Source: a virus. Taken from it: a stretch of 38,911 nt of DNA. Of the stretch, positions 20,204 to 38,911 are shown piece by piece. Within the stretch, counting starts at the first letter, position 1, and the number at the start of each line of letters is the position of its first letter. The notes beneath the pieces were generated by a model. The model saw only the letters and a list, made by a program, of their open reading frames with translations. It was not told where the DNA came from and did not search any database. Location of the stretch: the IMG/VR virus record IMGVR_UViG_3300029953_000080, positions 1 to 38,911 of that record. The stretch is one strand, 5' to 3'. The position numbers and the translations under genes were made by a program.

Positions 20204-20240
20204 CGCGAGGGTTGACAAAGCCCTAGCGTTGTGGTTTAAT
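20204..20240 (+). promoter_or_regulatory. Dyad-embedded extended -10 promoter
   Basis: TTGACA (20212-20217), a 17-bp spacer ending TGG, and TTTAAT (20235-20240) make a near-ideal promoter for the gene at 20268. The -35 lies in the 9-base centre of a dyad, CGCGAGGG (20204-20211) with CCCTAGCG (20221-20228), one mismatch. The same core recurs at 20546 and 20938. Confidence 0.68.
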
Positions 20241-20267
20241 GCTTAAGTTAACCAAGGAGCTATTCAC

Positions 20268-20545: not shown

Positions 20546-20576
20546 CAACGCGGGGGTTGACAAAGCCCCCGCGTTG
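20546..20576 (+). repeat. Perfect 11-bp dyad around a TTGACAAAG core
   Basis: CAACGCGGGGG (20546-20556) and its exact complement (20566-20576) flank TTGACAAAG. It matches the dyads at 20204 and 20938, but no convincing -10 lies 17 bp after this TTGACA. It may act as an operator, as an mRNA hairpin after the gene at 20268, or as a decayed promoter copy. Confidence 0.6.
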
Positions 20577-20929: not shown

Positions 20930-20937
20930 CAGAATAT

Positions 20938-20973
20938 GCGGGGGTTGACAAAGCCTTCGCGTTGTGGTTTACT
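20938..20973 (+). promoter_or_regulatory. Third dyad-type extended -10 promoter
   Basis: TTGACA (20945-20950), a 17-bp spacer ending TGG, and TTTACT (20968-20973) precede the gene at 21013. The flanks GCGGGGG (20938-20944) and CCTTCGC (20954-20960) pair with two G-T wobbles, so the hairpin is kept in RNA while the DNA dyad is imperfect. Confidence 0.65.
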
Positions 20974-21012
20974 AGTTTTGCTACCAACGGCACCAATAAA
21001 GGAGCAAGTACC

Positions 21013-21461: not shown

Positions 21462-21970
21462 CGCACCACCCATTTTGATTTCGGGGCCGCAGGGGTAACA
21501 GCCTGCGGCTTTGTTTCAGGTGGAACACTGATGGTGCCACCTTTGCGCACAAAGTGGAGCAGGGTATTCTTGCCACGCATTACGGTTATACCGGCATTTG
21601 TTGGGTGGGGTTCCACCTTAAGACCGAGGGAAGCCAACGTCAATGCAACCTCTGGCCCTTTCATCGAGCGAATACGTGCCTCATCGCCAGCAGGGGAACT
21701 GTCATGGGGTATATGGGCGATAAGTTCCTGGACGCGGGGCTTGGCCATTGCAATCTCGTTGGACAGGCGGCGATACTCCTTCCATACGATGCGTTCCACC
21801 TTGGTCCACAATGGGTCGGTGTAATCTGGAACCTGGGCAACAAGCTTCATGCTAAGACACATGGACTTGGCATCTCGCCAGTTCGGGAACGTCACAGAAA
21901 GGGTGCGGGAAGCGTAATCCGGGTGGTATTGAGCAAGATTTGCGATCTCTTGTGCGAAGTCTAAAGACAT
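21458..21970 (-). CDS. Lone leftward gene beside the origin-like region
   Basis: This is the only minus-strand gene in the rightward arm. The 170-residue protein (from ATG 21970, with GGAG upstream; the frame reaches 22012) has helical N-terminal two thirds (FAQEIANLAQYHPDYA, KVERIVWKEYRRLSNEI) and a beta-rich C-terminal part (LKVEPHPTNAGITVMRGK, FVRKGGTISVPPE) ending basic (KSKWVVR). It is driven by a strong promoter at 22003-22031 and diverges from the primase-helicase across an iteron-like region. A regulator or replication accessory protein is a reasonable guess; no known family is recognised. Confidence 0.6.
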   Translation of the reverse strand: MSLDFAQEIANLAQYHPDYASRTLSVTFPNWRDAKSMCLSMKLVAQVPDYTDPLWTKVERIVWKEYRRLSNEIAMAKPRVQELIAHIPHDSSPAGDEARIRSMKGPEVALTLASLGLKVEPHPTNAGITVMRGKNTLLHFVRKGGTISVPPETKPQAVTPAAPKSKWVVR

Positions 21971-25302: not shown

Positions 25303-25321
25303 CATCGATCAGAACTGACGA

Positions 25322-25389
25322 TTGACGTACAAAAAGCTAGTGGGTAGAATCTAAATATGGTTGACGGTGCCCGCCCTGCGTGGTAGGCT
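25322..25389 (+). promoter_or_regulatory. Two tandem promoters
   Basis: Promoter 1 is TTGACG (25322-25327), 17 bp, TAGAAT (25345-25350). Promoter 2 is TTGACG (25361-25366), 17 bp, TGG then TAGGCT (25384-25389). They share the same -35 and are 39 bp apart, ahead of the deaminase gene chain. Confidence 0.6.
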
Positions 25390-25411
25390 ACAGCTAGAGA
25401 AGGAAACCAGT

Positions 25412-25648
25412 GTGATTACTCTATTCGTAGGGCGAACCGGTGAGCGCTTGATGCTCCGCAAGGAACAAATAAGAGGCACGGCGTCGAGCCCTCCAGCGCC
25501 GCCGATGCGCCTTGTTGTCAAAGGCTGGTGGGTTCACCGCGAACGCGCAATCAGTTTTGCTGTGTTGGAGCGGTTTGACTTACTGTGCGGGCGGCTGCGT
25601 TCTCGACCTTGGTGGCGCGGTTTCAGCAAAAAATGGACGAAACTATGA
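25412..25648 (+). CDS. Small hypothetical protein
   Basis: This 78-residue basic protein starts at GTG 25412, 6 bases after an AAGGAAA ribosome site and downstream of two promoters; the frame is open further upstream, but there it consists of promoter DNA. The sequence has strands (ITLFVGRTGERLMLRKEQIR, MRLVVKGWW) and an Arg/Trp-rich end. It overlaps the next small gene by ATGA. The function is unknown. Confidence 0.5.
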   Translation: MITLFVGRTGERLMLRKEQIRGTASSPPAPPMRLVVKGWWVHRERAISFAVLERFDLLCGRLRSRPWWRGFSKKWTKL

Positions 25649-25761
25649 GCGCGCTTCGCAAGGGGCGGCATATGAACATCACCATCGACTCCCTTCTCGA
25701 AGTCGAGTGTGCGGAAACTGGCGCGCTAATGATTGAATACTGTGCAAAGGATGACGCGTGA
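25645..25761 (+). CDS. 38-residue peptide coupled to dCMP deaminase
   Basis: The frame MSALRKGRHMNITIDSLLEV... starts in an ATGA overlap and ends in a TGATG overlap with the deaminase start, so it is coupled on both sides. An internal ATG at 25672 could also serve. A short acidic C-terminal part has two Cys residues. It is too small for a fold prediction, but the double coupling supports translation. Confidence 0.5.
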   Translation: MSALRKGRHMNITIDSLLEVECAETGALMIEYCAKDDA

Positions 25762-26282
25762 TGCTGACGTATGACCGTTGGGTTGCTTATTTCTTTGATC
25801 AAGCCATGCTGGCGGCGTCCATGTCAAAGGACCCTTCAGATGGTGTGGGATCGGTGGTAGTCGATGAAACCAATCGTGTGGTATCTTCTGGTTATAATGG
25901 TCTGCCTGCAAGGGTGGACTTTAATCACGTTATTACAACCGACCGAGAAACCAAACTGCAATGCACGCTACATGCTGAAGAGAACGCACTGGCCTTCGCA
26001 TGGCGAGACGTACGAGGAATGTCACTATTTTCTACTCGAAAACCCTGCGCCCACTGTGCAGCGGTAATCGTGCAACGCGGCATACACTGCGTGGCCTACC
26101 TCATCGATCCCAACGACACAATCAACCCGGCTTGGGAGAAAAGCTTTCAGCTTGCCGATGAAATCTTCGAGCAGGCCCAAGTACAGGTGGTGGAGTTTAC
26201 GTACCTTCTAAACCTGGACAACAAGCGGATATACTTCGAAAGATATCCGCTTGAAGTTCCAGATGACGACTGCCCTTTTTAG
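25761..26282 (+). CDS. dCMP deaminase
   Basis: This enzyme converts dCMP to dUMP, the substrate for thymidylate synthase, in the cytoplasm. The 173-residue protein has the zinc site of the cytidine/deoxycytidylate deaminase family: HAEENA (residues 71-76, His ligand and catalytic Glu 73) and PCAHC (95-99, two Cys ligands). The N-terminal YNGLPARVDF matches the family's substrate loop. Length is normal. ATG 25761 is chosen for its TGATG overlap; GTG 25758 is one codon upstream. With ThyX at 38176 it forms a dTMP-supply pathway. Confidence 0.9.
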   Translation: MLTYDRWVAYFFDQAMLAASMSKDPSDGVGSVVVDETNRVVSSGYNGLPARVDFNHVITTDRETKLQCTLHAEENALAFAWRDVRGMSLFSTRKPCAHCAAVIVQRGIHCVAYLIDPNDTINPAWEKSFQLADEIFEQAQVQVVEFTYLLNLDNKRIYFERYPLEVPDDDCPF

Positions 26283-26291
26283 GAGGCGAAG

Positions 26292-26447
26292 ATGCTTAAT
26301 TTTTTGGTTGGACTAGTGGAGTGGTTTTTGATTGGATGCGTAATCTTCTCATTCTTATATATTATAACGGGAACATATTATATATGTATGACCCGGCGCA
26401 GGCACAAGGAGACGGCCGAGTTCATAAAGCACCGGCCTAATCATTAA
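26292..26447 (+). CDS. 51-residue single-pass membrane protein
   Basis: A perfect AGGAGG (26281-26286) lies 5 bases before ATG 26292. The protein has a long hydrophobic segment (VGLVEWFLIGCVIFSFLYII, then TGTYYIC) followed by a basic cytoplasmic-type tail (TRRRHKETAEFIKHR). This predicts one inner-membrane helix with the C-terminus inside. The stop overlaps the next start (TAATG). The local AT-rich DNA contrasts with the flanks. A host-membrane function such as superinfection exclusion is possible but not shown. Confidence 0.62.
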   Translation: MLNFLVGLVEWFLIGCVIFSFLYIITGTYYICMTRRRHKETAEFIKHRPNH

Positions 26448-26782
26448 TGGCACGGAAAGTAGTTAAATGGAACACCGAACCGGTAAACCCATCCACCAGG
26501 CCGTCAATTTCATCTGCCGGGACGCCTGGATTGTCTTCGGTTTCCTCAAGGGTTGTTCCTGCGAAGAGCAAGGTGGCACCAACACCTGTTATTATAAAGC
26601 CCGAAGACGTCATGATGAATGGCTCAAAGCACGGCACCGCTTCACACATGTTGATGATGTTGCGCAACACGTTCAGAAATAGCCTGGGCATTGGACCAGA
26701 AACTGCAATGATGGCAGTCGAGTTCTTCGGTAAGCTGTTAATGGACAACGACCTGCAGGACTGGAAACCCGGCAATGACTAA
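26447..26782 (+). CDS. Hypothetical protein in small-gene chain
   Basis: This 111-residue protein has a Pro/Ser/Thr-rich flexible first half (NTEPVNPSTRPSISSAGTPG) and a helical Met-rich second half (ASHMLMMLRNTFRNSLGI, MAVEFFGKLLMDN). It is coupled upstream by TAATG and overlaps the next gene by 8 bases. The layout suggests a linker plus a small binding domain. No family is recognised. Confidence 0.55.
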   Translation: MARKVVKWNTEPVNPSTRPSISSAGTPGLSSVSSRVVPAKSKVAPTPVIIKPEDVMMNGSKHGTASHMLMMLRNTFRNSLGIGPETAMMAVEFFGKLLMDNDLQDWKPGND

Positions 26783-27098
26783 AGATATGCCCGTGCGGCT
26801 GACGATGGGACAGCGTGCCATCATACGCTCGTTATTACGCGCTACGCTAGTCACTCAAAGGCGTCAGCTAGAAATAGCGCAACTAAGAGTTAATGATATG
26901 GCAGAGCACAACATCAAGCTAGAGATCGCCTCGCTTGAGAACGTGTTGGATGCTATCGGAAGGGAAGTAGAAGTAGAACAACTTTCTGCTGAACAAAGGT
27001 ACGTGCCGCCCAGGGCATCTACTGAGAACAAGCCATTTACTACAGATGGCGTAATCTTTAACTCACGCATCGTTGATGCTGAATGGGAAGAAAGCTAA
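26775..27098 (+). CDS. Hypothetical helical protein
   Basis: This 107-residue protein has two long helices (GQRAIIRSLLRATLVTQRRQ, IKLEIASLENVLDAIGREVE) with coiled-coil spacing, and a polar C-terminal tail. It overlaps the preceding gene by 8 bases and the following one by TAATG. No motif points to a function. Confidence 0.55.
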   Translation: MTKDMPVRLTMGQRAIIRSLLRATLVTQRRQLEIAQLRVNDMAEHNIKLEIASLENVLDAIGREVEVEQLSAEQRYVPPRASTENKPFTTDGVIFNSRIVDAEWEES

Positions 27099-27337
27099 TG
27101 GAAGACATGAAAGCTGTAACCGTATGGGCTGATGTTAAGAATTTGCTAACAAACATCGGCATATCGCCGGATCTCACCGATTGCTGTATCTGCGGCAAGC
27201 CCGTGGCAACGGTAGGAACTTTCTCAACTTATGATGGCGAGTTGGAGGTAAGCCTCTTCTGCCATGGTAAGGTTGATACACACACCTTTATCTCAACCGG
27301 ACCCGGTGTGATGAAGAGGCTTACCAATGGCCGTTGA
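27098..27337 (+). CDS. Small Cys-rich protein, zinc-knuckle-like
   Basis: From ATG 27098 (TAATG with the upstream stop) this is a 79-residue protein; the frame is open back to ATG 27083. The segment DCCICGKPVATVG followed by VSLFCHGKVDTHTF has a C-x2-C pair and a later C-H pair, which could bind one zinc ion. Hydrophobic strands surround it. Small zinc-knuckle proteins in early phage regions often bind nucleic acid or host proteins; this is inference. Confidence 0.55.
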   Translation: MEDMKAVTVWADVKNLLTNIGISPDLTDCCICGKPVATVGTFSTYDGELEVSLFCHGKVDTHTFISTGPGVMKRLTNGR

Positions 27338-27512
27338 TGTTCAATACAACACACTGGTACTGCTTGAACACATGATGGATGCGGTTCGGTCAGGTAAGTA
27401 CACAGTGACTACAGCCACCCTCAACCGTAACGCGGATGGGTCCGTGTACATCGAGGTTAGTGCTACCCCAAAGCCTAGCCTGACGTCTGCGTGGCGTGAA
27501 AGCCCAATCTAA
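27327..27512 (+). CDS. Small hypothetical protein
   Basis: This 61-residue protein overlaps its upstream neighbour by 11 bases. It has a helix (YNTLVLLEHMMDAVRSGK) followed by strands (TVTTATLNRNADGSVYIEV). It is the last of the coupled small genes before ndk. The function is unknown. Confidence 0.5.
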   Translation: MAVDVQYNTLVLLEHMMDAVRSGKYTVTTATLNRNADGSVYIEVSATPKPSLTSAWRESPI

Positions 27513-27526
27513 TAAAGGAGAATAAA

Positions 27527-27958
27527 ATGGAACTGCAACAAGCTACCCTGATCATGATCAAGTCTGCCGCCGTGATGCGCAAGCAGACCATGCCCATCCT
27601 GTCTACGATCCCGCTGCTCGGGTTTACTGTTCACCATACAGACCGATGATTTCGTTGTCTTACCGATGACGAAATCATCGGTCTGTATGGTGAACACAAA
27701 GACAAGCACTTCTGGAATGAACTGTGTAATAGTGTGGATTATGGCGTGGTGACTGCGGTGCTGGTCGGCCCTGGCGCAATCACACGTTGGCGTGAACATA
27801 TCGGCGCGACCGACCCGACCAAGGCATTGCCGGGAACGCTGAGGCACGACTTCGGCATGATTGGTGCGGATAACGCGGTACATGGCTCTGCAACGGTTGA
27901 GGATGCCAACCGGGAAATCTCACTGATGTATCCAGTCACAAAGGTTGAGGCTGTATAA
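27527..27958 (+). pseudogene. ndk: Nucleoside diphosphate kinase with in-frame TGA
   Basis: Read through one TGA, this frame gives 143 residues, the normal size of nucleoside diphosphate kinase, which balances NTP and dNTP pools. Active-site features are in register: Lys 12 in TLIMIK, Tyr 54 in LYGEHK, Arg 88 in TRWRE, GATDP at 93-97, Arg 106 in GTLRHDF, and the phosphorylated His 119 in NAVHGS. Codon 41 (27647-27649) is TGA. It lies in the left arm of a 28-bp perfect inverted repeat, and residues 34-43 there do not look like the family. AAAGGAG precedes ATG 27527. The gene is either inactivated, recoded, or misassembled; no close in-frame ATG restart exists downstream. Confidence 0.8.
27628..27696. 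repeat. 28-bp perfect inverted repeat inside ndk
   Basis: Arms 27628-27655 and 27669-27696 pair at all 28 positions around a 13-base loop. The right arm encodes the conserved kinase segment around IIGLYGE, so it is the ancestral copy. The left arm is its reverse complement and replaces normal coding sequence, creating the TGA. The transcript would form a very stable hairpin. Confidence 0.95.
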
Positions 27959-27971
27959 ACTTCTGCGGCAC

Positions 27972-28000
27972 TTGACTGCATAAGGTAGACATGGTATACT
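27972..28000 (+). promoter_or_regulatory. Promoter of the UvrD-like helicase
   Basis: TTGACT (27972-27977), a 17-bp spacer ending TGG, and TATACT (27995-28000) lie 48 bases before GTG 28049. It fits the extended -10 consensus of the other early promoters, with the same TGGTATACT as at 17389. Confidence 0.7.
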
Positions 28001-28048
28001 CCTGGTAGATGGAGCGGAGTGGCCGCACCCACTATCAGGAGATAGCCA

Positions 28049-29647
28049 GTGTCAGAAGTAAAGCATGAGTATGTCCCTTCGGTCCAGCAGGCAGCATACT
28101 ACGATTTCGTCCAAAATGGGCGTGGCAGCGCGGTGGTGGAAGCCGTTGCAGGTGCTGGCAAAACCGAAACCCTCGCACGCGCAGTAATGATGATGCAGGG
28201 TTACGTGACGGTGATGATGTTCAACAAGAACGCCTCCGAAGAGTTCAAATCCCGCTTGGTGCGCCTGGGTGGCGCTGACCAGCAAGGCACCCGCGTCATG
28301 ACGCGTAAGGGCCTGGTCGTAGGCACCTGCCACTCGATCGGGTTTTCCGCTTTCCGTGGCCTGGAGCGTGACGCCGATATCAACGAACGCAAGGTGGCCA
28401 ACATCATCGAGGCGATGGCTGCAGATCCCGCCGCCAACTTTATGAAAGTGCAGATGCTGGAAGATGGCGGCGACTTCATCAAGCGCACCGTCTCCATCGC
28501 TAAGCAGATGCTCGCGGGCATCACGTTCCAGGTTACAGACCTGGAGAAGTGGCTAAAGATGGTGCAGCACTTCAGCCTTGACAGTGATCTGGCCGATGAT
28601 GCTGACGTGCCGGTGCTGGTGCAGATCGCGATGGAAATCTTCATGATCTCAGCAGAGCGCTGCCGATCAACCACCAACCGCCGCGCAGAGATCGACTTTG
28701 ACGACATGATTTGGGCACCACTCTATTTCAAAGCCCGTTTCTTCACCGTGGACCACGTGGTAATTGATGAGGCACAGGACACCAACCCCGCACGGCGCGA
28801 ACTGGCAGCACGGTGCCTCAAGCCGGGTGGCCGACTGCACGCTTGTGGTGATAGCCGTCAGGCAATTTATGGTTTCACTGGTGCTGACCATAATGCTCTC
28901 GACTTGATCACCAAGCGCTTCAATGCGGTGCGGATGCCGCTGACTGTGACATATCGCTGCCCGAAATCCGTGGTGCGTCATGCCCATCAGTGGGTGAACC
29001 ACATCGAAGCCCATAATAGTGCACCTGAGGGTCAAGTGCGCGCTGTTATCCTGGACAAGGAAGCCAAACCCCGCCCGTGGTTTGTGTCCGATCCCCTCGG
29101 TCCTACCGATGCGGTCATTTGTCGCTACAATAAGCCGCTGGTCAAGCTGGCGTTTACGCTGATCAAGTCAGGCATCGCTTGTAAGGTAGAGGGCCGAGAT
29201 ATCGGCATGGGTCTTATTGTGTTGGTGAACCGCTTGAAAGCGAAGACCCTGGACGGCCTGGAGCCTAAGCTTGAGAAGTGGCGTGCTAAGGAAATCAGCA
29301 AGGCCCGCGCCAAAAAAAGCGAGAGCCTTGAGCAGGCAGTGAGTGATAAGGCTGACTGCATCCTGGTCTTTATTGAGGCATGCCGTGCCGAGGGTGGCGA
29401 TCGCACTGAATGTGTAATCGCCAAGATCAGCGCCCTGTTTGCGGATGACGTGAAGGGCATCCTTACTCTTTGCAGTGGCCACAAGTCTAAGGGCCGCGAG
29501 TGGAAGAACGTGTTTTGGGTGCAGACCGAGCAGCGCGGCTTTCGTGAGTTGCAGCCACACGAGCAACTGCAAGAGGACAACATCAAGTACGTAATCACCA
29601 CGCGCGCGCAGGAAACCTTGGTGCTGGTCCCGGAGAAGCTAGTATGA
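28049..29647 (+). CDS. UvrD/Rep-like superfamily 1 DNA helicase
   Basis: This 532-residue ATP-dependent helicase has the superfamily 1 motifs in order: motif I VAGAGKTET (about residues 33-41), motif II VIDEAQDTN, motif III ACGDSRQAIYGFTGAD, motif IV VTYRCPKS, motif V GHKSKGREWKNV and motif VI YVITTRAQETLVL. It would unwind DNA in replication or recombination. It is shorter than UvrD itself. GTG 28049 has AGGAG upstream and its own promoter. A stretch near 29198-29282 recurs with 27 extra bases at 30468. A 10-codon frame overlaps the stop (ATGA, 29644-29676) but is too short to call. Confidence 0.9.
   Translation: MSEVKHEYVPSVQQAAYYDFVQNGRGSAVVEAVAGAGKTETLARAVMMMQGYVTVMMFNKNASEEFKSRLVRLGGADQQGTRVMTRKGLVVGTCHSIGFSAFRGLERDADINERKVANIIEAMAADPAANFMKVQMLEDGGDFIKRTVSIAKQMLAGITFQVTDLEKWLKMVQHFSLDSDLADDADVPVLVQIAMEIFMISAERCRSTTNRRAEIDFDDMIWAPLYFKARFFTVDHVVIDEAQDTNPARRELAARCLKPGGRLHACGDSRQAIYGFTGADHNALDLITKRFNAVRMPLTVTYRCPKSVVRHAHQWVNHIEAHNSAPEGQVRAVILDKEAKPRPWFVSDPLGPTDAVICRYNKPLVKLAFTLIKSGIACKVEGRDIGMGLIVLVNRLKAKTLDGLEPKLEKWRAKEISKARAKKSESLEQAVSDKADCILVFIEACRAEGGDRTECVIAKISALFADDVKGILTLCSGHKSKGREWKNVFWVQTEQRGFRELQPHEQLQEDNIKYVITTRAQETLVLVPEKLV
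29198..29282 (+). repeat. Helicase segment duplicated at 30468
   Basis: This 85-base piece of the helicase gene (encoding IGMGLIVLVNRLKA and then KTLDGLEPKLEKW) is nearly identical to 30468-30579, apart from 27 bases absent here between the two encoded blocks. Confidence 0.9.
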
Positions 29648-29687
29648 AAGCAGCTGAAGACATTCTCCTTGATTAGCTCTTCCCCTT

Positions 29688-29710
29688 CCCGCGCTTAGCA
29701 GCGCGGGTTT
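29688..29710 (+). terminator. Terminator-like hairpin after helicase
   Basis: CCCGCGC (29688-29694) pairs with GCGCGGG (29701-29707) over a 6-nt loop and is followed by TTT. It lies 41 bases after the helicase stop and before the next gene. Confidence 0.6.
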
Positions 29711-29751
29711 GGCAAGCGTTAATTCCATCGCTTGAACTGGAGTCCCTCACC

Positions 29752-30012
29752 ATGTCAAAACTTGTCGAAATTCACGATCTCAAAACGGCGGTATACATCG
29801 TCAGCACTGCCGCTTGGAAGCGCTGGTATATTGTCGGCGGCCCATTGACAACCGCCGACTATGTGCGCTCGATTACAGACGCCATAGACGCAGCATACAT
29901 GACCTATCGCGAGGGCGTTGACGATGCCAAATGGACTGACGATACCTTTGACCTGCTGAAGATGTGGAGGTCGCCGCGCACCGCTGAAGATGTGGAGGGC
30001 GCCGCGCGATGA
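29752..30012 (+). CDS. Small hypothetical protein
   Basis: This 86-residue protein has strands at the N-terminus (KLVEIHDLKTAVYIVST, WKRWYIVGGPL) then helices (YVRSITDAIDAAYMTYREG, DDTFDLLKMW). GGAG precedes the ATG. Its stop overlaps the next start by ATGA. No family is recognised. Confidence 0.58.
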   Translation: MSKLVEIHDLKTAVYIVSTAAWKRWYIVGGPLTTADYVRSITDAIDAAYMTYREGVDDAKWTDDTFDLLKMWRSPRTAEDVEGAAR

Positions 30013-30155
30013 ATGACCTCCTCTTCGCTTTCCAGTCTGATGATGCTTGCTGCCGTGGTTTCTGGAACGCCCACAAAGATGAGTTTCAACTAGGTCAGGT
30101 GGCTCAGCGCCTGGGTTTGGTTCGGTTTGTAAAGGAGGATACGCTGCGTGAATAA
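30009..30155 (+). CDS. 48-residue coupled protein
   Basis: The frame MNDLLFAFQSDDACCRGF... starts in an ATGA overlap and ends 8 bases past the next gene's GTG start. It is mainly helical (HKDEFQLGQVAQRLGLVRF). The AAAGGAGG inside its 3' end serves the next gene. Coupling on both sides supports translation; the function is unknown. Confidence 0.5.
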   Translation: MNDLLFAFQSDDACCRGFWNAHKDEFQLGQVAQRLGLVRFVKEDTLRE

Positions 30156-30294
30156 GCTTCAGTCAGGTTCAATGGATAAGCTGCAGCAGGGAGAGGACGT
30201 TCCTAAGTGCCCTGTTTGTGGCCTTAAGCCCCTCAAGGGATCGCTTTATTGTGTGTTTCACAAGCCGACCAGTAAGGAGAATAGAAATGTATAG
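30148..30294 (+). CDS. 48-residue zinc-ribbon-like protein
   Basis: GTG 30148 stands 9 bases after AAAGGAGG. The protein contains CPVCGLKPLKGSLYCVFH, a C-x2-C...C-x2-H arrangement that can hold one zinc ion, flanked by polar sequence. It overlaps the following membrane-protein gene by 8 bases. Single zinc-ribbon peptides of this size are common in phage early regions, with unknown targets. Confidence 0.55.
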   Translation: MNKLQSGSMDKLQQGEDVPKCPVCGLKPLKGSLYCVFHKPTSKENRNV

Positions 30295-30565
30295 CAGCGT
30301 CCTGATCGCCAGCATCTGCGTGCCATGGTGCCTCGTGGTGGTACTCGCCGTGGCCTACGCCCTCCGTCCTCGTGTGGTCGTCCATGAGACACGGTATGCT
30401 AGGCCCACCCCAGCCCCCACCGCCACGGAGAGCGCTCCCGTGGCCAGGGAGGCATATACCTCGCTCCGATATCGGTATGGGTCTTATTGTGTTGGTGAAC
30501 CGCTTGAAGGCTTGGCAACAAGCTTCATGCGAAGACACGAAGACCCTGGACGGCCTGGAGCCTAA
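30287..30565 (+). CDS. Membrane-anchored protein with C-terminus made from helicase DNA out of frame
   Basis: AAGGAG precedes ATG 30287 at a good distance. The 92-residue product has an N-terminal membrane segment (LIASICVPWCLVVVLAVAYA), a Pro/Thr/Ala linker, and a C-terminal third from about residue 61 (YRYGSYCVGEPLEG...) encoded by DNA nearly identical to part of the helicase gene but read in another frame. The original C-terminus has therefore probably been replaced by a transferred fragment. The N-terminal layout resembles a small signal-anchor protein. Whether the hybrid is functional is unknown. Confidence 0.55.
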   Translation: MYSSVLIASICVPWCLVVVLAVAYALRPRVVVHETRYARPTPAPTATESAPVAREAYTSLRYRYGSYCVGEPLEGLATSFMRRHEDPGRPGA

Positions 30566-30579
30566 GCTTGAGAAGTGGC
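30468..30579 (+). repeat. Second copy of helicase segment, with 27 extra bases
   Basis: This 112-base copy of 29198-29282 differs by a few substitutions and by 27 additional bases, nine codons in helicase frame (beginning WQQASCEDT). The extra piece contains a near-direct repeat (GCGAAGAC, ACGAAGAC). This copy may preserve an older helicase allele from which the present helicase lost the nine codons. The rest of 30,566-30,709 holds no gene. Confidence 0.88.
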
Positions 30580-30647
30580 AGGTTATACAACTACTATCAA
30601 ATGCGCTATTCATACAGGCACCCGTATGTGGAGTAATTCCTGCTACC

Positions 30648-30676
30648 TTGTGCAGGGCAGGGTCCCAGTGTAGTAT
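30648..30676 (+). promoter_or_regulatory. Promoter before the gene at 30737
   Basis: TTGTGC (30648-30653), a 17-bp spacer, and TAGTAT (30671-30676) lie upstream of a strong GAGGAGAG (30697-30704). The -35 is the same TTGTGC used at 18377 and 31074; no TGn extension is present. Confidence 0.5.
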
Positions 30677-30709
30677 GTCTCAGGTTTAACTAAATAGAGG
30701 AGAGCGTAA

Positions 30710-30736
30710 ATGGCAAAGGGTGATTTGGAGACTTGA
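30710..30736 (+). CDS. 8-residue leader or 5' end interrupted by TGA
   Basis: GAGGAGAG directs ribosomes to ATG 30710, which reads MAKGDLET and stops at TGA (30734-30736). GTG 30737 follows immediately in the same frame. It is either a leader peptide with restart, or the real 5' end of the next gene with an in-frame TGA at codon 9. Confidence 0.45.
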   Translation: MAKGDLET

Positions 30737-31060
30737 GTGAAGACCGCAGAGCAATCGGACAAGGAACGTCGCGCCGCGCATGCCTCGCGTCGGCCCCCGA
30801 CGAAGGCCAAGCCCGAGTTGCCGGGTATCGTGCTGAAAACGCCAAACGGCAGCTTTATCAAGGCCAAGAAAATCGAACCCGACACTAAAACGTTCGACGA
30901 CAAGGGTCGCATTATGATCGATGGTGCGGTTGCCCATGCGGCTGCAGCTAATTTAGACTGTGACCGGTATCTTGTTCACAAGGACAAGCTGTGCGTAGCC
31001 AAGGATGATGGAATGATCATCCTTGGCTACGCAATTGAGGGATCTTTCGTCAAGATTTAA
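30737..31060 (+). CDS. Small basic hypothetical protein
   Basis: This 107-residue protein has a basic, probably unfolded N-terminus (SDKERRAAHASRRPPTKAKP) and a compact C-terminal part with strands (IVLKTPNGSFIKAKKIEPD, DRYLVHKDKLCVAKDDGMI). GTG 30737 directly follows an in-frame TGA; GGAG lies 8 bases upstream. The 3' part of the gene carries an 18-bp perfect inverted repeat (30992-31033). The function is unknown. Confidence 0.55.
   Translation: MKTAEQSDKERRAAHASRRPPTKAKPELPGIVLKTPNGSFIKAKKIEPDTKTFDDKGRIMIDGAVAHAAAANLDCDRYLVHKDKLCVAKDDGMIILGYAIEGSFVKI
30992..31033. repeat. 18-bp perfect inverted repeat inside a coding region
   Basis: Arms 30992-31009 and 31016-31033 are exact complements around the 6-nt loop GGAATG, near the 3' end of the gene at 30737. 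The frame stays open through it. There is no T-run after it, so it is not an ordinary terminator. Confidence 0.92.
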
Positions 31061-31073
31061 TTCAGACTATATC

Positions 31074-31116
31074 TTGTGCGGCTTTGACCCAGGTGCTATA
31101 GTATCTGGGTCAAAGC
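31074..31116 (+). promoter_or_regulatory. Promoter with 12-bp dyad around its -10
   Basis: TTGTGC (31074-31079), 17 bp ending TGC, and TATAGT (31097-31102) form an extended -10 promoter. Perfect 12-bp arms, GCTTTGACCCAG (31081-31092) and its complement (31105-31116), flank a 12-nt centre holding the -10. A dimeric repressor bound here would block polymerase, so this is a good operator candidate for the DUF2786 operon. Confidence 0.62.
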
Positions 31117-31131
31117 ATAAAGGAAAGTGCA

Positions 31132-32193
31132 GTGTCTGACCGTCAAATCCCCGATAACGTGATCAACCGGGTCCGCAAGCTTCTCGCCGTAGCCAATGAT
31201 GGTCGTGGCAATGAAAACGAAGCGGCCAACGCTGCGGCCATGGCTCAATCGATCATCGCTGAGTATGGTCTTGAGATGGCGCAGTTGGCTGATACTCCCA
31301 GCAGCGATCCTTCGGCATCCAGGTCAAAGACCAGCCACAACCGTGCTGCAATGTACTCATATCAGCGCAGCTTGATGGAGGCTGTGGCCAAGGTTTACTT
31401 TTGCCGCCACTTCATTATTGAAGAGCATGCCGAGAGCTTTGGTAAGATGCGTAAGGTGAAGCGTCACGCTTTGTTGGGCCGTAATATCAACATTCAGGTT
31501 GCTACCATGGTTTACGATTACCTGATTGACACTATGGATCGTTTGTTACCCTACCAGGGCATGGAAAAGCGCGGCAAGAACGCTCTGCTATGGCTTGATG
31601 GCTGTTCGTCACGCTTGATTAGCAGGCTGGATCAGAAGCGCCGTCAGATGGAAGAGGACAGCGATCGCAAGCGCAGGGAAGACGAAACCCGCGCTAGGCA
31701 TCCAGGTGCCGCGTCCGCTGGCAACGCGATGGTGCTGGCTGAGCTTTATTCAAACGAAGACGACCTTAATACCGACTTCATTCATGGTCTGAAACCCGGC
31801 ACCACCACTGCTGAGCGTAAGGCTAGTCAAGCGCGTTGGGCTGCTCAAAAGGCTCAGCTTGATGACAAGCGTGCCGCGCTTATTGCAGAGGGCATTGACG
31901 AGGATTTAGCGCGTTATATTGCGAGTTATGGCGGGGTTCTCGGTCGTAAATACTATGCTGACTATCTTGCCGAGAAGGAGAAGTCAGAACGGCAAGTGTC
32001 TAAGCCGGAAACCGAAGCTCAACGCCGCAAGCGCGAAGAACGCCAGGAGCGCGAGAACAACCATTATCGGCAGCAGAGCCAGCGCCGCAATGCCAAGCTT
32101 TATGAGCCAGCATATCAGGCTGGTTTAAATACCGGTGCCCACATTGGCCTTGACGATCAACTGACCGAGGAGCAGAGAAGGAAAATCGGATGA
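31132..32193 (+). CDS. DUF2786-domain protein
   Basis: This 353-residue protein begins with a DUF2786-like domain: VINRVRKLLAVANDGRGN, then ANAAAMAQSIIAEYGLEMAQ (about residues 9-50). The domain occurs in phage and bacterial proteins of unknown activity. A middle region (KVKRHALLGRNINIQVATMV) and a long charged helical C-terminus (AQRRKREERQERENNHYRQQ) follow, the latter suited to coiled-coil or nucleic-acid contacts. The start is GTG 31132 with AAGGAAA upstream, controlled by the dyad promoter at 31074. It overlaps the next gene by ATGA. Confidence 0.75.
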   Translation: MSDRQIPDNVINRVRKLLAVANDGRGNENEAANAAAMAQSIIAEYGLEMAQLADTPSSDPSASRSKTSHNRAAMYSYQRSLMEAVAKVYFCRHFIIEEHAESFGKMRKVKRHALLGRNINIQVATMVYDYLIDTMDRLLPYQGMEKRGKNALLWLDGCSSRLISRLDQKRRQMEEDSDRKRREDETRARHPGAASAGNAMVLAELYSNEDDLNTDFIHGLKPGTTTAERKASQARWAAQKAQLDDKRAALIAEGIDEDLARYIASYGGVLGRKYYADYLAEKEKSERQVSKPETEAQRRKREERQERENNHYRQQSQRRNAKLYEPAYQAGLNTGAHIGLDDQLTEEQRRKIG

Positions 32194-32489
32194 TACAGCT
32201 ATTTCCGCCCCTTGATTTAGGGAGGGTAAGCATTGAAGAGTGCTTTACCCTTACCCGTTGCGTTCTCAAGAAAAAACGGGATTGGCACAAGAAATGGGAA
32301 AAATCAGATCCCGAATGTGGACCGCAACAATGGCGGTGCCGTGACCGAAACGAGGTTATCAACATTTCGGATATGACTGATAGCCATTTAAAGCATGCTA
32401 TACGATTTGCTTCTACCAAGTCTCAGCACTCTTCACGTATGGCAGCGCTGTCGGCTGAGAACGGCAAAAGGAACCACAACCATGAGTAA
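32190..32489 (+). CDS. Hypothetical protein
   Basis: This 99-residue basic protein is coupled to the DUF2786 gene by ATGA. The N-terminal half is hydrophobic then basic (VSIEECFTLTRCVLKKKRDW), and the middle has Cys/Trp (DPECGPQQWRCRDR). A helix with Ser/His-rich tail ends it. It overlaps the next gene by 8 bases. No family is recognised. Confidence 0.52.
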   Translation: MIQLFPPLDLGRVSIEECFTLTRCVLKKKRDWHKKWEKSDPECGPQQWRCRDRNEVINISDMTDSHLKHAIRFASTKSQHSSRMAALSAENGKRNHNHE

Positions 32490-32886
32490 TCCAGCAGTAA
32501 CGCAGAAGGATATCGACTCGGCCATCGAAGGCTGGAGTAAAGACCCTGCTGCGATGCGCAAGAAAATCCTCGATATGGCCACTGACGTTAATAGCCTAAT
32601 TATGGGAATGAGCATAGCCACCCACGAGCAGGCAGCTTTTAATGCTATGATGCGCGGGGAACCATGCGTGGTAACTAGCGCTGATAAACACAACTGCAGA
32701 AACTGTGAAAGCATGATCGTGGGATCTAAAGTTGCGCACCCAACGCCACAGCATCTGCAGATCTTTCGACAAGCAGTGTGGATGGGTGAACCGGTTCGTT
32801 GGGTATGCGAACTTTGCATGTCGCCCATGAACATTAAGATGACCCCCAATATGGAGCAACTACGCCGTGAAAATTACCAGGGATAA
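32482..32886 (+). CDS. Hypothetical protein with two CxxC pairs
   Basis: This 134-residue protein starts at ATG 32482, after AAAAGGA; the open frame extends upstream in a different-frame overlap with the previous gene. The first half is helical (KDIDSAIEGWSKDPAAMRKK). The second half holds CRNCESM and, about 45 residues later, VCELCMSP, a four-cysteine set that could bind zinc. It overlaps the next gene by 20 bases. A small zinc-dependent DNA-binding role is plausible but unproven. Confidence 0.57.
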   Translation: MSNPAVTQKDIDSAIEGWSKDPAAMRKKILDMATDVNSLIMGMSIATHEQAAFNAMMRGEPCVVTSADKHNCRNCESMIVGSKVAHPTPQHLQIFRQAVWMGEPVRWVCELCMSPMNIKMTPNMEQLRRENYQG

Positions 32887-33172
32887 CCTTCTACAAAGTG
32901 CCACGCCTATCGTGCACCAGTCCCCAGTTGGGTTTTCTGGTCCTGTCCCTCGGCTACAGGCCCCACATGTTCGTATGGTTAAGCATGTGGATAAGTTTTA
33001 TTTTGTGGTGTTCAAGGACGAAACTACTGAATATGTAACTGATATCTGGCACAGGGATTTCAAAGCTAAGGATCAGCGTCGATGTGTCTGGAGCCACCTG
33101 TCATCCAAGAAACCAACCCGGATGCACAAAGATATCAGCTTCAAAGCCATGACTGCACCCCTGGGCCAGTAG
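32867..33172 (+). CDS. Hypothetical protein
   Basis: This 101-residue protein starts at GTG 32867, with GGAG 10 bases upstream in the overlapping end of the previous gene. The central part is beta-like (HVRMVKHVDKFYFVVFKDET, then YVTDIWHRDFKAK) and the C-terminus is basic. No family is recognised. The HNH gene that follows appears inserted after it. Confidence 0.52.
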   Translation: MKITRDNLLQSATPIVHQSPVGFSGPVPRLQAPHVRMVKHVDKFYFVVFKDETTEYVTDIWHRDFKAKDQRRCVWSHLSSKKPTRMHKDISFKAMTAPLGQ

Positions 33173-33186
33173 TAAGCTTAGATAAA

Positions 33187-33504
33187 GTGATACCCAGGTT
33201 ACGCAATAAAATAACCGTACTTGACTTTCCACATCCAGTTTTGTTATCCTATTGTTGGATATGGACAGGTCGTAATAACCGAAACGGTTATGGTAGAGTA
33301 AGCTGGGGTGGTAAGGAGCCTGTGGCGCACAGATTAATTTGGGAGTTGCATATAGGCCCCATACCACCAAAGCACCTGCTAGATCACTTGTGCCGAAATA
33401 GAAATTGCGTAAACCCTCACCATATGGAACCGGTTACAGTTCAAGTAAATACCCTGCGAGGTAAGGCGATACTATTCCAACGCCAGCACCAATCAGGGAA
33501 TTAA
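33187..33504 (+). CDS. HNH homing-type endonuclease
   Basis: The protein has the HNH pattern of phage free-standing endonucleases: CWIWTGRNNRNGYGRVSW, then AHRLIWELHIGPIPPKH, LLDHLCRNRNCVNPHHMEPV and VNTLRGKA. The central Asp-His pair and the C-x4-C-x-N-P-x-H element supply metal and zinc sites. The start is uncertain: GTG 33187 puts 23 residues before CWIW, as is usual; ATG 33082 would overlap the previous gene by 90 bases. The sequence is more AT-rich than its flanks and interrupts an otherwise coupled chain, consistent with a mobile gene. Confidence 0.78.
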   Translation: MIPRLRNKITVLDFPHPVLLSYCWIWTGRNNRNGYGRVSWGGKEPVAHRLIWELHIGPIPPKHLLDHLCRNRNCVNPHHMEPVTVQVNTLRGKAILFQRQHQSGN

Positions 33505-33511
33505 TAAGTAC

Positions 33512-33549
33512 TTCACACAGTCTAAGCGCTATGGTTTATTTTGGCTTAG
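33512..33549 (+). promoter_or_regulatory. Promoter with dyad, before KVE-repeat gene
   Basis: TTCACA (33512-33517), 17 bp ending TGG, and TTTATT (33535-33540) fit the extended -10 consensus. CTAAGC (33522-33527) and GCTTAG (33544-33549) flank the -10. An AGGAG follows before ATG 33586. Confidence 0.55.
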
Positions 33550-33585
33550 CACCCCGACTAGAGTTTTTTTCACAGGAGATACGAG

Positions 33586-34059
33586 ATGGCCAAAAAGCAG
33601 CCCGTTGAAGTTAATGAAGAGAAGATTACCAAGCCAGCGCCGGCGTCGAAGGCCAAGGTCGAGAAGGTCGAGAAGGTCGAGAAGGTCGAGAAGGTGAAGG
33701 TCGAGAAGGTCGAGAAGGTCGAGAAAGCCTCGGACCCTGCCGAGAACGATGATGCCCCTGTCGCGTCGAGCGGCGTGGTCGATCGGTCGAAGTACAGCTA
33801 CACGACCAACAAGGAAGTCAAGACGGCTTCGGGCCGTGCCTCGGTGGACAACGACGATCCATTGGCCGCAGCACTGCGTGGCAAGACCAGCGAAGAGGTC
33901 ATCAACCTTGTCGCCGTGAATGGTGGCACCGTCAACCCGAAGTGGAATGATCTGAACCAGGGCCTTGCCCGCATGTCGGCAGGTAACGTGCTGCGCAAAC
34001 TGGCGAAGCGCACCGAAGGCATCAAGATCGACGGCAAGACGCTGGCGATCGCCGCCTAA
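33586..34059 (+). CDS. KVE-repeat protein with conserved C-terminal domain
   Basis: This 157-residue protein has three parts. Residues 1-22 are basic; about 23-46 is a run of KVE tripeptide repeats, encoded by 9-base and 6-base DNA units and likely a charged coil. Residues of about 60-157 form a domain ending KWNDLNQGLARMSAGNVLRK then GIKIDGKTLAIA. This end matches the C-terminal part of the gene at 19106. AGGAG precedes the ATG and a dyad promoter lies upstream. Abundant charged early proteins with such tails can bind DNA, but no function is established. Confidence 0.68.
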   Translation: MAKKQPVEVNEEKITKPAPASKAKVEKVEKVEKVEKVKVEKVEKVEKASDPAENDDAPVASSGVVDRSKYSYTTNKEVKTASGRASVDNDDPLAAALRGKTSEEVINLVAVNGGTVNPKWNDLNQGLARMSAGNVLRKLAKRTEGIKIDGKTLAIAA

Positions 34060-34137
34060 TACAAGAGACGTCGCTGCCTCAAAACGTGGACTTAAGAGCC
34101 ACCCATTAGGCAACGATCTGAAAGCAGGAAGGTCCCC

Positions 34138-34214
34138 GGCCCTCGGCCCTCGGCCCTCGGCCCTCGGCCCTCGGCCCTCGGCCCTCGGCCCTCGGCCCTC
34201 GGCCCTCGGCCCTC
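34138..34214 (+). repeat. Eleven tandem copies of GGCCCTC
   Basis: Exactly 77 bases form eleven perfect 7-base units, 35 bases before the ATG at 34249. The tract is non-coding on the plus strand. Perfect identity points to recent expansion by replication slippage. Copy number may vary between isolates and could alter leader structure or spacing. Confidence 0.93.
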
Positions 34215-34248
34215 GATATACAGTGTCCTGAAAAGAAAGGAAAGTACC

Positions 34249-34566
34249 ATGTCAGTAAAATGTCGTCTTGTTTGTGACAAATACATACCATATGAAGTCG
34301 ACGGCGAAGTCAAATACGTCAGCGTCGGCTTCTCAGCCGTTTACTCCAGCGACCCGACCGACCCGAACTACTCGTTCAGCACCGCAACCCCGAGCGCGCG
34401 TCTCGATCTCACCATCTCCAACCCGGCTGCGTTCAATCAATACGAATTCGGCAAGACCTATAATTTCACGTCCGAACTCTACGAGGCGCCGAAGCCTCTG
34501 ACCGAAGACGAGAAACTCGAAGCAGTCGACAACGCCAATCCTATTCCAGGGAACGGCGGCAGCTAA
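34249..34566 (+). CDS. Small beta-rich protein
   Basis: This 105-residue acidic protein (VKCRLVCDKYIPYEVDGEVK, YVSVGFSAVYSSDPTD, SARLDLTISNPAAFNQYEFG) reads as an all-beta fold with an acidic, Pro-rich tail (EAPKPLTEDEKLEAVD). AGGAAAG precedes the ATG. An acidic flexible tail is found in many phage single-strand binding proteins, but no DNA-binding core is recognised here. The heptamer repeat lies directly upstream and a hairpin directly downstream. Confidence 0.6.
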   Translation: MSVKCRLVCDKYIPYEVDGEVKYVSVGFSAVYSSDPTDPNYSFSTATPSARLDLTISNPAAFNQYEFGKTYNFTSELYEAPKPLTEDEKLEAVDNANPIPGNGGS

Positions 34567-34568
34567 TT

Positions 34569-34593
34569 CAAACTCCTTTAATACGGGAGTTTG
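34569..34593 (+). terminator. Hairpin after the gene ending at 34566
   Basis: CAAACTCC (34569-34576) pairs with GGAGTTTG (34586-34593) over 9 bases, two bases after the stop. There is no T-run, so termination is uncertain; it may protect the 3' end or belong to the structured region that follows. Confidence 0.4.
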
Positions 34594-34607
34594 TGGGTAA
34601 CTCTAGG

Positions 34608-34734
34608 CTGTGTGGTGGTGCCTGAACTACTACATTAGCGACAGCACCGTTCGACCGTAGTGCGAGTTACATTAGGTCCTGGGAGGCTAATAGTTCAGGC
34701 TCTGACCTCCTGGGGCCAACGGTCGTTCACACAG
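34608..34734 (+). ncRNA. Candidate structured RNA
   Basis: This non-coding stretch folds by nested pairings: CTGTGTG (34608-34614) with CACACAG (34728-34734); GCCTGAACTA (34620-34629) with 34691-34700; TTAGC (34635-34639) with GCTAA (34686-34690), stacking directly on the previous helix with a 5-base bulge on the 5' side; and GCAC (34644-34647) with GTGC (34660-34663). CGACC (34652-34656) in the inner loop could pair with GGTCG (34721-34725) as a pseudoknot. No known RNA class is recognised. It may be a cis-acting leader of the gene at 34754. Confidence 0.45.
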
Positions 34735-34753
34735 AGATAAAGGAAACAGTAAA

Positions 34754-34864
34754 ATGCAAGCACTAAGCCTCGCCACCACCTGGAAATGCGCCGCTTGCGG
34801 CAAGACGTCTAGCAACAAAGACGAAATCTGCACCCCTGCCCCGGCATATAAGGGCACCAAATAG
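34754..34864 (+). CDS. 36-residue Cys-containing peptide
   Basis: AAAGGAAA precedes ATG 34754. The product has a C-x2-C pair (WKCAACGKTSSNKDEIC) with a third Cys, resembling half of a zinc ribbon. Its stop overlaps the next gene's GTG start (TAGTG), so it is coupled. It lies directly after the structured RNA candidate. Confidence 0.5.
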   Translation: MQALSLATTWKCAACGKTSSNKDEICTPAPAYKGTK

Positions 34865-35238
34865 TGGAAATTAAGTTTAATAATGCGCCTCTGGGAACCC
34901 CCCATGAGTGCCGGGTATTTATGCCGAGCGACCCGAAGGGCTTCGATCTCTCGGACCTCCGCAGATTTGGATTGAATATTTATCCACTGGTCAAAACCAG
35001 AGTCATCTATCCAGATCAGGCCGAAGAGGAAGAGAACAACCTTCCTCAGTTGATCAACTATTACCTTGATACGATGAACTTTAATCCCCACAAGGATTAC
35101 GTAGTGCTGATAGGCGATCCGCTTATTACAGCAGCGTCCATCTTTGTGTTGGGACAAAAGGTTGACAGCATCACGGTCCTGCGCTACGATAGCCAGTCGA
35201 GGGCATACTGGCCCTTTAAGATTAGCCTTAAACAATAA
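34864..35238 (+). CDS. Hypothetical protein
   Basis: This 124-residue protein starts at GTG 34864 in a TAGTG overlap. It has an alternating strand/helix pattern (YVVLIGDPLITAASIFVLGQ, SITVLRYDSQSRAYWPFKI) and an acidic EEEENN loop. The pattern is that of a small alpha/beta domain. No family is recognised with certainty. Confidence 0.6.
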   Translation: MEIKFNNAPLGTPHECRVFMPSDPKGFDLSDLRRFGLNIYPLVKTRVIYPDQAEEEENNLPQLINYYLDTMNFNPHKDYVVLIGDPLITAASIFVLGQKVDSITVLRYDSQSRAYWPFKISLKQ

Positions 35239-35249
35239 AGGATACCAAC

Positions 35250-35930
35250 ATGGCCAAAGCACCTGTAAAGACCAAGCCCGCTGCGTTCGTCTCGGCCCCG
35301 TCCGTGGCATCTCCACCAGCCCCGGTATCTCAGCCCCCCGAGACACGGCGAGCCAGTCGGGACGCCATGGTGGACGCCGCCGAGGCTGTCCCAGTGGTCC
35401 CAGTGCCGCCCCTCCTCAAGCTAGACGATATCCACAAGATGGGGCTACCCGTCGAGAAGGCCCTGATTAAGCTTAACATCGCTGTCCGTGAAGCGATGGG
35501 CGAGATTAAGGGCCATGGTGATCGTGCTGCCCATCTGGCTCAAATCTACTCCAAACTGCGCACTGCACAGGAGATTTTGACGCTTCAGATCAAGGACTTT
35601 GAGGCCGTTATCTCTGTGGTCCAGGGCGTGTTGATCCCAGAGTCTTTCGAGCGTGAGCAGTTGCAGACACTGACCACCATGAACGGCGACCGTTTGACCG
35701 TTGTCATGAAGCTGTATGCTTCGGTTAACGGAGAGAATAAGGACAAAGCTTACAAGTGGCTGCGCGACAATGGCCATGGCGCTATGATCCAGGAAACCAT
35801 CAACGCAAGTTCGCTTAGCGCGTTTGCGAAGGCTGAGTTGGCCGAGGGCCGTGAACTGCCCGACGAGATCTTCTCGATCTTCACCAAACCCAGCACCACC
35901 CTGACCCGCAAAAAGGTGAAGGCGAAATAA
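35250..35930 (+). CDS. Conserved phage protein, replication-region
   Basis: This 226-residue protein has an Ala/Pro-rich N-terminus (about 1-55), a helical middle (AAHLAQIYSKLRTAQEILTL, FEAVISVVQGVLIPESFERE) and a C-terminal domain with AYKWLRDNGHGAMIQETINA followed by AELAEGRELPDEIFSIF. The WLRDNGHG...NASSL...LP pattern recurs in many phage proteins of unknown role near replication and recombination genes. AAAGGA precedes the ATG. A basic end (RKKVKAK) may contact DNA. The function is unassigned. Confidence 0.65.
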   Translation: MAKAPVKTKPAAFVSAPSVASPPAPVSQPPETRRASRDAMVDAAEAVPVVPVPPLLKLDDIHKMGLPVEKALIKLNIAVREAMGEIKGHGDRAAHLAQIYSKLRTAQEILTLQIKDFEAVISVVQGVLIPESFEREQLQTLTTMNGDRLTVVMKLYASVNGENKDKAYKWLRDNGHGAMIQETINASSLSAFAKAELAEGRELPDEIFSIFTKPSTTLTRKKVKAK

Positions 35931-35931
35931 G

Positions 35932-36180
35932 ATGTCGGAACCTGTTATCCTAAAGCCGCACACTTGCAGCACCTGCTCCCTTAAGGAACGTGATCCTAAT
36001 GGGGGTATCATATGCCGCAGTGGTCCTCCCTCCAGCACGGCGATCGTTGTGCCGGGTCCACAGGGTCAACCCATGATCATTGGTCAGACTACCAGCTTCC
36101 CTCAGCCCAAGGGTGAGGACTGGTGCTGGGACCACCCCGATCTTATTCGGCCCCGCAAGTCAGCAATCATTCAAAATTAG
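35932..36180 (+). CDS. Small Cys-rich protein
   Basis: This 82-residue protein starts one base after the previous stop. It contains HTCSTCSLKERDPNGGIICR, and later WCWDH, a Cys/His set that could coordinate zinc or an iron-sulfur cluster. The remainder is Pro/Gly-rich. No family is recognised. Confidence 0.58.
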   Translation: MSEPVILKPHTCSTCSLKERDPNGGIICRSGPPSSTAIVVPGPQGQPMIIGQTTSFPQPKGEDWCWDHPDLIRPRKSAIIQN

Positions 36181-36190
36181 GGACAAGTCG

Positions 36191-36421
36191 ATGTTGAAAC
36201 AGTATATCCTTGTAATGCGGGACGTTGGCTATCACTTGATTGGTCCCTTTGACAAAGATGAAGATGCGCAGCTTTGGGCTATGCTGCAATGGGACCAAGC
36301 AAAAGGCGATCCGCGTTGGCAGATCCTGGGTATGACAACCCAACCCGCTAAGGATCTGCCTTCGGTCTATGCTCCGCTTCAGGCACAATTGCTTAAGCAG
36401 CAGGGTCAGGACATCATCTAG
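36191..36421 (+). CDS. Small hypothetical protein
   Basis: This 76-residue protein starts at ATG 36191, 10 bases after the previous stop; the frame is open back to 36080 inside the preceding gene. It has strands and helices (QYILVMRDVGYHLIGPFD, EDAQLWAMLQWDQAKG), consistent with a compact alpha/beta fold. It ends just before the dyad promoter at 36424. The function is unknown. Confidence 0.58.
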   Translation: MLKQYILVMRDVGYHLIGPFDKDEDAQLWAMLQWDQAKGDPRWQILGMTTQPAKDLPSVYAPLQAQLLKQQGQDII

Positions 36422-36423
36422 CA

Positions 36424-36463
36424 ATCTGCAGGGCTTGACACCCTGCAGATGCTATGGTACTAT
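36424..36463 (+). promoter_or_regulatory. Promoter with 10-bp dyad around its -35
   Basis: TTGACA (36435-36440), 17 bp ending TGG, and TACTAT (36458-36463) precede the gene at 36495; TATAAT at 36461 is an overlapping alternative with a 20-bp spacer. Perfect 10-bp arms ATCTGCAGGG (36424-36433) and its complement (36441-36450) bracket the -35. The layout repeats that of 20204 and 20546. Confidence 0.65.
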
Positions 36464-36494
36464 AATCGAGCCACTTTCACATATAGGAGCTACA

Positions 36495-37385
36495 ATGGCA
36501 CAGAAACCGACCACCGCTGCACCCGCACGTAAGGCCCCCACTCAGGCCGTCACCGTCAAGGAAACCAAAACCACCGCAGTCGCCGCCCCAATCCCGAGCT
36601 TCATGCAGGGCATGCGGGGCCAAGGGACCGAGAACCTCGGTCAGGGCGACATCGAAACCCCCCGCCTCAAACTCCTGCAAGCGGTTTCCCCCGAGTGCGA
36701 AGAGTTCGACGAGGCCAAGCAAGGCGAGTATTGGCACAGCGTTGCCGAAGTCTCGCTCGGCAAGGAACTTCGCATCGTCCCGCTTTACATCGACATGCGC
36801 GCCATCTTGTGGCGTCCGCGTCATCAAGGCGGCGGCATCCTTGCCCGTGCTGATGATGGCGTGAACTGGACACCGCCGAACGCTGAATTCGAAGTGCAGC
36901 CCTACAAGGACAACAAGAAACTCGTCAAGTGGCGCACCAAGCCCACTGTCGCGGCTTCTGGTCTTCTCGAATGGGGCAGCACCGATCCCGAAGACCCGAA
37001 CAGCCAGCCTGCCGCAACCCGCATGTATAACATGGCGGTGGCTCTGCCGGATCATCCCGAACTGGGCATCGGCGTCGTCACGCTGCAGCGCTCTGGCATC
37101 CGGGTTGCCCGCAAGTTCTTGGGCAAGCTGAAGCTGATGTCGGTGCCGTCTTTCGGCTGCTACTTCACCATGGGCAACGTTCGCGACCAAAACCCATCGG
37201 GTGATACCTTCTACAACTACTCCTTCACCGCTGCAGGCTTCGTGCAGGACGAGGAAGAGTTCATGCAATACAAGGGACTGTATGAGAGCTTCAAGCTGAT
37301 GGGCCTTAACATCAAGGACCTTGAGAGCGCTCAGGAAGAAGGCGTCATCGACGGCACCGTCGATGCTGGCGGGGCCAAGTACTAA
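36495..37385 (+). CDS. Conserved phage protein with own strong promoter
   Basis: This 296-residue protein (ATG 36495 after AGGAG) has an Ala/Thr/Lys-rich N-terminus, then ENLGQGDIETPRLKLLQAVS, a pattern common in phage proteins near replication genes. The core follows: GKELRIVPLYIDMRAILWRP, VALPDHPELGIGVVTLQRSG, PSFGCYFTMGN. It ends with an acidic tail. A beta-rich core plus acidic tail fits a single-strand DNA-binding or recombination mediator protein, but that is inference. A strong dedicated promoter and RBS suggest high expression. Confidence 0.65.
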   Translation: MAQKPTTAAPARKAPTQAVTVKETKTTAVAAPIPSFMQGMRGQGTENLGQGDIETPRLKLLQAVSPECEEFDEAKQGEYWHSVAEVSLGKELRIVPLYIDMRAILWRPRHQGGGILARADDGVNWTPPNAEFEVQPYKDNKKLVKWRTKPTVAASGLLEWGSTDPEDPNSQPAATRMYNMAVALPDHPELGIGVVTLQRSGIRVARKFLGKLKLMSVPSFGCYFTMGNVRDQNPSGDTFYNYSFTAAGFVQDEEEFMQYKGLYESFKLMGLNIKDLESAQEEGVIDGTVDAGGAKY

Positions 37386-37396
37386 CTGACTGCGCA

Positions 37397-37502
37397 GCAC
37401 TGAGCGAGAGCGCGCGCTAGATGTCTCAGGGGTGTTTTATCTAGCGCCAGTGCAGCAGACTGGCAACCCGCCAGGGCCGAAGAGCGTAGAGTCTCTTCGG
37501 CC
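37397..37502 (+). ncRNA. Candidate structured RNA, three hairpins
   Basis: Helix 1 is GCACTG (37397-37402) with CAGTGC (37448-37453). It stacks on helix 2, GCGCTAGAT (37414-37422) with ATCTAGCGC (37439-37447), leaving an 11-base bulge on the 5' side. Next comes CTGGC (37460-37464) with GCCAG (37470-37474). The last is a perfect 10-bp hairpin, GGCCGAAGAG (37475-37484) with 37493-37502. It lies between the genes at 36495 and 37535 and ends 20 bases before the next AAAGGAG. It could be a leader or processed small RNA; no known class is recognised. Confidence 0.45.
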
Positions 37503-37534
37503 AAAGGGACCACCCCACATAAAGGAGATATACT

Positions 37535-38904: not shown

Positions 38905-38911
38905 GATGATA

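Follow-up and report, generated by a model that had tools for sequence, protein, structure and literature searches.

A phage nucleoside diphosphate kinase gene with a stop codon inside a 28-bp perfect inverted repeat, probably the product of a template-switch mutation

Here, we describe a phage gene (ndk) for nucleoside diphosphate kinase, a common enzyme that keeps nucleotides in balance; the 41st codon of the gene is a TGA situated within one arm of a 28-bp perfect inverted repeat. Comparison with homologous kinases indicates that one arm is native kinase sequence and the other is foreign to the family, and we conclude that this was probably an ordinary phage ndk that has been inactivated by a short-range template-switch mutation.

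Results

The gene lies in an IMG/VR virus record of 38,911 bases, the whole of which was analyzed and is referred to below as the window. Other genes in the window encode a portal protein, terminase, primase, a UvrD-like helicase, a dCMP deaminase and ThyX. The features of the ndk locus, with the basis for each in parentheses, are as follows.

27516..27520, + strand: AGGAG ribosome-binding site before the ndk ATG (sequence)
27527..27958, + strand: ndk frame, interrupted at codon 41 (frame translation, Pfam, homologue alignment)
27628..27655, + strand: left arm of the 28-bp perfect inverted repeat, apparent foreign insert, reverse complement of 27669-27696 (arm comparison, homologue alignment)
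27647..27649, + strand: in-frame TGA, codon 41 (reading-frame analysis)
27656..27668, + strand: loop, 13 nt (repeat geometry, RNA folding)
27662..27682, + strand: short inverted repeat ACCGATGA-CGAAA-TCATCGGT lying in native kinase sequence, which may have seeded fold-back (sequence)
27669..27696, + strand: right arm, native kinase codons within DDEIIGLYGEH, apparent source of the copy (arm comparison, homologue alignment)
27972..28000, + strand: sigma-70-like promoter, TTGACT-17-TATACT, before the downstream helicase gene (promoter-like match)

The ndk frame runs for 143 codons ahead of its own TAA, and the TGA is the only stop within it. Residues 5 to 137, nearly the whole length of the product, match the Pfam NDK family PF00334 (E 3.5e-30), and the catalytic residues K12, R89, T95, R106, N116 and H119, all invariant positions of the alignment described below, are retained. 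The original prediction of a TGA at codon 41 of an otherwise in-register kinase is therefore confirmed. Where the gene differs from the family is in this stop, which deprives it of the uninterrupted frame expected of a functional nucleoside diphosphate kinase, and in two extra codons located between the second strand and the helix after it.

As had been predicted, the two arms of the inverted repeat are complementary at 28 of 28 positions and are separated by a 13-nt loop, and codon 41 falls inside one of them, the left. The chance expectation for 28-bp perfect stems with a loop of 20 nt or less in the window is about 1e-11, and the longest perfect stem (loop of 30 nt or less) among control viral and bacterial loci totaling 1.13 Mb was 19 bp. 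The inverted repeat is genuinely present in the given sequence and lies far beyond chance. In the RNA form four further pairs, including two G-U pairs, form on the inner side of the stem, which then has 32 pairs closed by a 5-nt loop, and the region is predicted to fold to about -60 kcal/mol (z -9.4).

In order to establish which arm is native, the ndk frame was aligned with 93 bacterial and viral NDK homologues, the identity of which to the window gene is 43% or less. The right arm encodes EIIGLYGEH, in agreement with the conserved Y-A-E-H segment of the family, whereas the left arm does not match the family, bearing out the earlier reading of the two arms. All 93 homologues are two codons shorter than the window gene, and the difference falls exactly within the left arm, which is the site of the sole gap in this part of the gene that all of them share relative to the window. 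Because only the right arm fits the family and the homologues are two codons shorter, we take the left arm to be the insert and the right arm its source. The ndk codons are family-like up to about codon 34 and again from codon 44-45, indicating normal locus on either side of the insert. As expected for an antisense insert, codon adaptation dips to 0.61 in codons 34-43, compared with 0.87 before and 0.80 after, although this stretch comprises ten codons only. The net change was probably a gain of 6 nt, as judged from homologues of no more than 43% identity. Hence, of the earlier proposal that length and reading frame are both preserved across the repeat, the part concerning frame holds and that concerning length probably does not.

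A search of IMG/VR with protein patterns and with the arm sequence returned no close relative with an intact ndk, and the best match in the phage collection was about 35% identical across almost the entire frame. Loci with the related helicase led to fifteen records, in none of which ndk was matched. The two extra codons are in none of the homologues found, all of them at or below the same 43% identity.

Over 24-25 kb, the window is 99.996% identical to two contigs of other assemblies, both of which stop short of ndk. IMGVR_UViG_3300030020_000030 has one mismatch in 25,308 bases, ends at window position 25308 and resumes at 34009; IMGVR_UViG_3300029952_000091 has one mismatch in 23,705 bases and ends at 23705. 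Among the contigs found, none provides an independent assembly covering 27.6 kb. The contig that resumes at 34009, contig G016 (50,377 bp), shares both window ends, 1-25308 and 34009-38911, and contains 20,166 bases absent from the window. Overlap at both ends implies that the map, of about 59.1 kb, is circular or circularly permuted.

Additional repeats and rearrangements were observed elsewhere in this phage. Two smaller rearrangement footprints are located within 3.5 kb of the ndk hairpin. Part of the helicase gene (29198-29282) recurs at 30468-30579 as a mosaic, in which helicase pieces of 44 nt (95%) and 42 nt (100%) enclose a 28-nt patch that matches 21833-21860 (93%) and is absent from both the helicase itself and its relatives. 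From its sequence, this mosaic looks like a second template-switch footprint. At 30992-31033, inside the 3' end of ORF 30737-31060, there is a second perfect hairpin of 18 bp with a 6-nt loop, for which the chance expectation is about 1e-5. No relatives of this ORF were found, and a pattern scan gave none for the dCMP deaminase or the DUF2786 gene. The end of ORF 29752-30012 carries, at 29951-30007, a tandem duplication of about 28 nt that is near-perfect. The 7-bp unit CGGCCCT occurs in 11 copies, with 100% matches, at 34137-34215, not far from 34009, where contig G016 starts. Close to small genes, an element containing TTGACA is present three times (20204-20257, 20549-20576 and 20937-20990); these copies are probably repeated promoters. 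In the sister contig L179, a perfect 19-bp hairpin at 11957-12000 is flanked by two convergent ORFs and is probably a two-way terminator.

Discussion

The arrangement at ndk can be accounted for by a single event. In the course of DNA synthesis the polymerase would have come off its template near 27628, taken 28 nt (27669-27696) in reverse orientation from the other strand, and resumed on the original template near 27656. About 22 nt of native sequence would thereby have been replaced by a 28-nt copy, creating at once the perfect hairpin and the TGA at codon 41. The inserted segment is the exact reverse complement (28/28) of sequence located 13 nt away. This is the outcome of the four-point switch model, in which a two-step switch leaves a reverse copy between two normal flanks (PMC8794818); related events include the quasipalindrome-associated mutations of E. 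coli (PMC7202029) and template-switch coding changes in yeast (PMC8604942). The ndk case resembles such short-range template-switch mutations in having a short reverse-complement copy of adjacent sequence, normal flanks and a perfect hairpin attributable to one event. It differs in that the copy is 28 nt long and probably lengthened the gene by a net 6 nt, in that a stop has been created in a phage metabolic gene, and in that the switch points are placed by inference. Fold-back of the strand may have been favored by an 8-bp inverted repeat of the native sequence (27662-27682), which overlaps the region copied. Fold-back priming from this repeat alone was considered and rejected, as it does not yield the observed arms. 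Outside the arms, no clear microhomology was seen at either putative junction. Since the arms are still identical at 28 of 28 positions, the insertion is probably young, and the retained invariant residues suggest that ndk was functional until recently; both point to a recent break in the gene.

Of the three explanations originally put forward, template switching is the best supported, given the foreign left arm, the native right arm, their perfect identity, the normal position of both flanks, and the occurrence close by of a native inverted repeat of 8 bp. An inverted chimera from library amplification was another, and in broader form it holds that the repeat is a fold-back or chimera from amplification, library preparation or assembly, and that the real phage population carries an ordinary ndk. 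Inverted chimeras are common in multiple displacement amplification (MDA), accounting for 85% of 475 junctions (PMC1855051), and inverted-repeat chimeric reads also arise in sonicated libraries (PMC10908179). In addition, the region 25309-34008, which is missing from the larger near-identical contig, also contains the odd patches 30468-30579 and 30992-31033. However, the MDA chimeras reported are mostly inverted joins of two segments made once (PMC1855051), whereas the ndk insert is bounded by two junctions within 30 nt and leads back into its own locus rather than ending at a single inverted junction, which argues against both MDA and library fold-backs. Furthermore, a minority chimera should not reach the consensus, and several differences separate the patch at 30468-30579 from its sources, so that this patch is not a fresh artefact. 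A plain chimera thus fits poorly, and we consider an artefact of any kind unlikely.

The third explanation, that the stop is recoded or bypassed with the help of the hairpin to give a full-length kinase, found no positive support and is highly improbable. In programmed translational bypassing in phage T4 gene 60 and in selenocysteine insertion, too, a stop codon and a hairpin occur together within an open frame. At ndk, the frame stays open before and after the TGA, and the downstream half retains its catalytic residues. Reading TGA as Trp gives a protein that is modeled as a confident full-length chain (mean pLDDT 90.9); as such models are insensitive to point changes, this says only that a full-length product would not be structurally absurd. 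Nevertheless, the left arm is missing from all 93 homologues, distant as they all are, so that neither stop nor hairpin is conserved among them. TGA is also a normal terminator in this phage, ending 13 of the 44 frames examined (two of which were drawn with wrong bounds, leaving the point unaffected), and an alternative genetic code was rejected on this basis. No tRNA gene, and thus no suppressor, was found in the window or in the remainder of the map that contig G016 covers, the window has no Rfam match, and no bypass signal was found. Unlike gene 60, ndk has no in-frame pair of take-off and landing codons compatible with the family: the CGA preceding the TGA recurs downstream only out of frame, again before a TGA, and the matching GAC pair at codons 39 and 48 would delete residues that the family requires. 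Unlike selenocysteine insertion, no Sec machinery or element is seen. Were it true, passage of ribosomes through a TGA in a self-copied stem would be a new form of hairpin-dependent recoding. It is just as improbable that the inverted repeat has been kept by selection for transcription termination or for cutting of the transcript by RNase III. The RNA fold is very stable, and the 19-bp hairpin of the sister contig sits between convergent ORFs in a terminator-like position, but the ndk hairpin is in the middle of a catalytic gene, is not followed by a T-run, and was not called as a terminator. Therefore, the suggestion of a rare hairpin-stop kinase gene is not supported; ndk is most likely just broken, by a known kind of copying accident rather than through a new way of reading genes.

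With the TGA at codon 41, translation would stop after 40 residues, ahead of nearly all of the catalytic residues; every one of those listed above except K12 lies behind the stop. Judged from the sequence, the allele is probably null. The downstream helicase aligns nearly end to end with its relatives, and because a promoter-like site precedes it, loss of ndk is probably not polar, or of little polarity. Presumably, the host supplies its own NDK.

In this uncultured phage a probable template-switch mutation can be seen clearly, with source and copy still perfectly matched. It illustrates how a single slip in copying can both form a long hairpin and inactivate an auxiliary metabolic gene, and it carries a warning for annotation, as a gene of this type may be labeled a kinase though it is probably not expressed as one.
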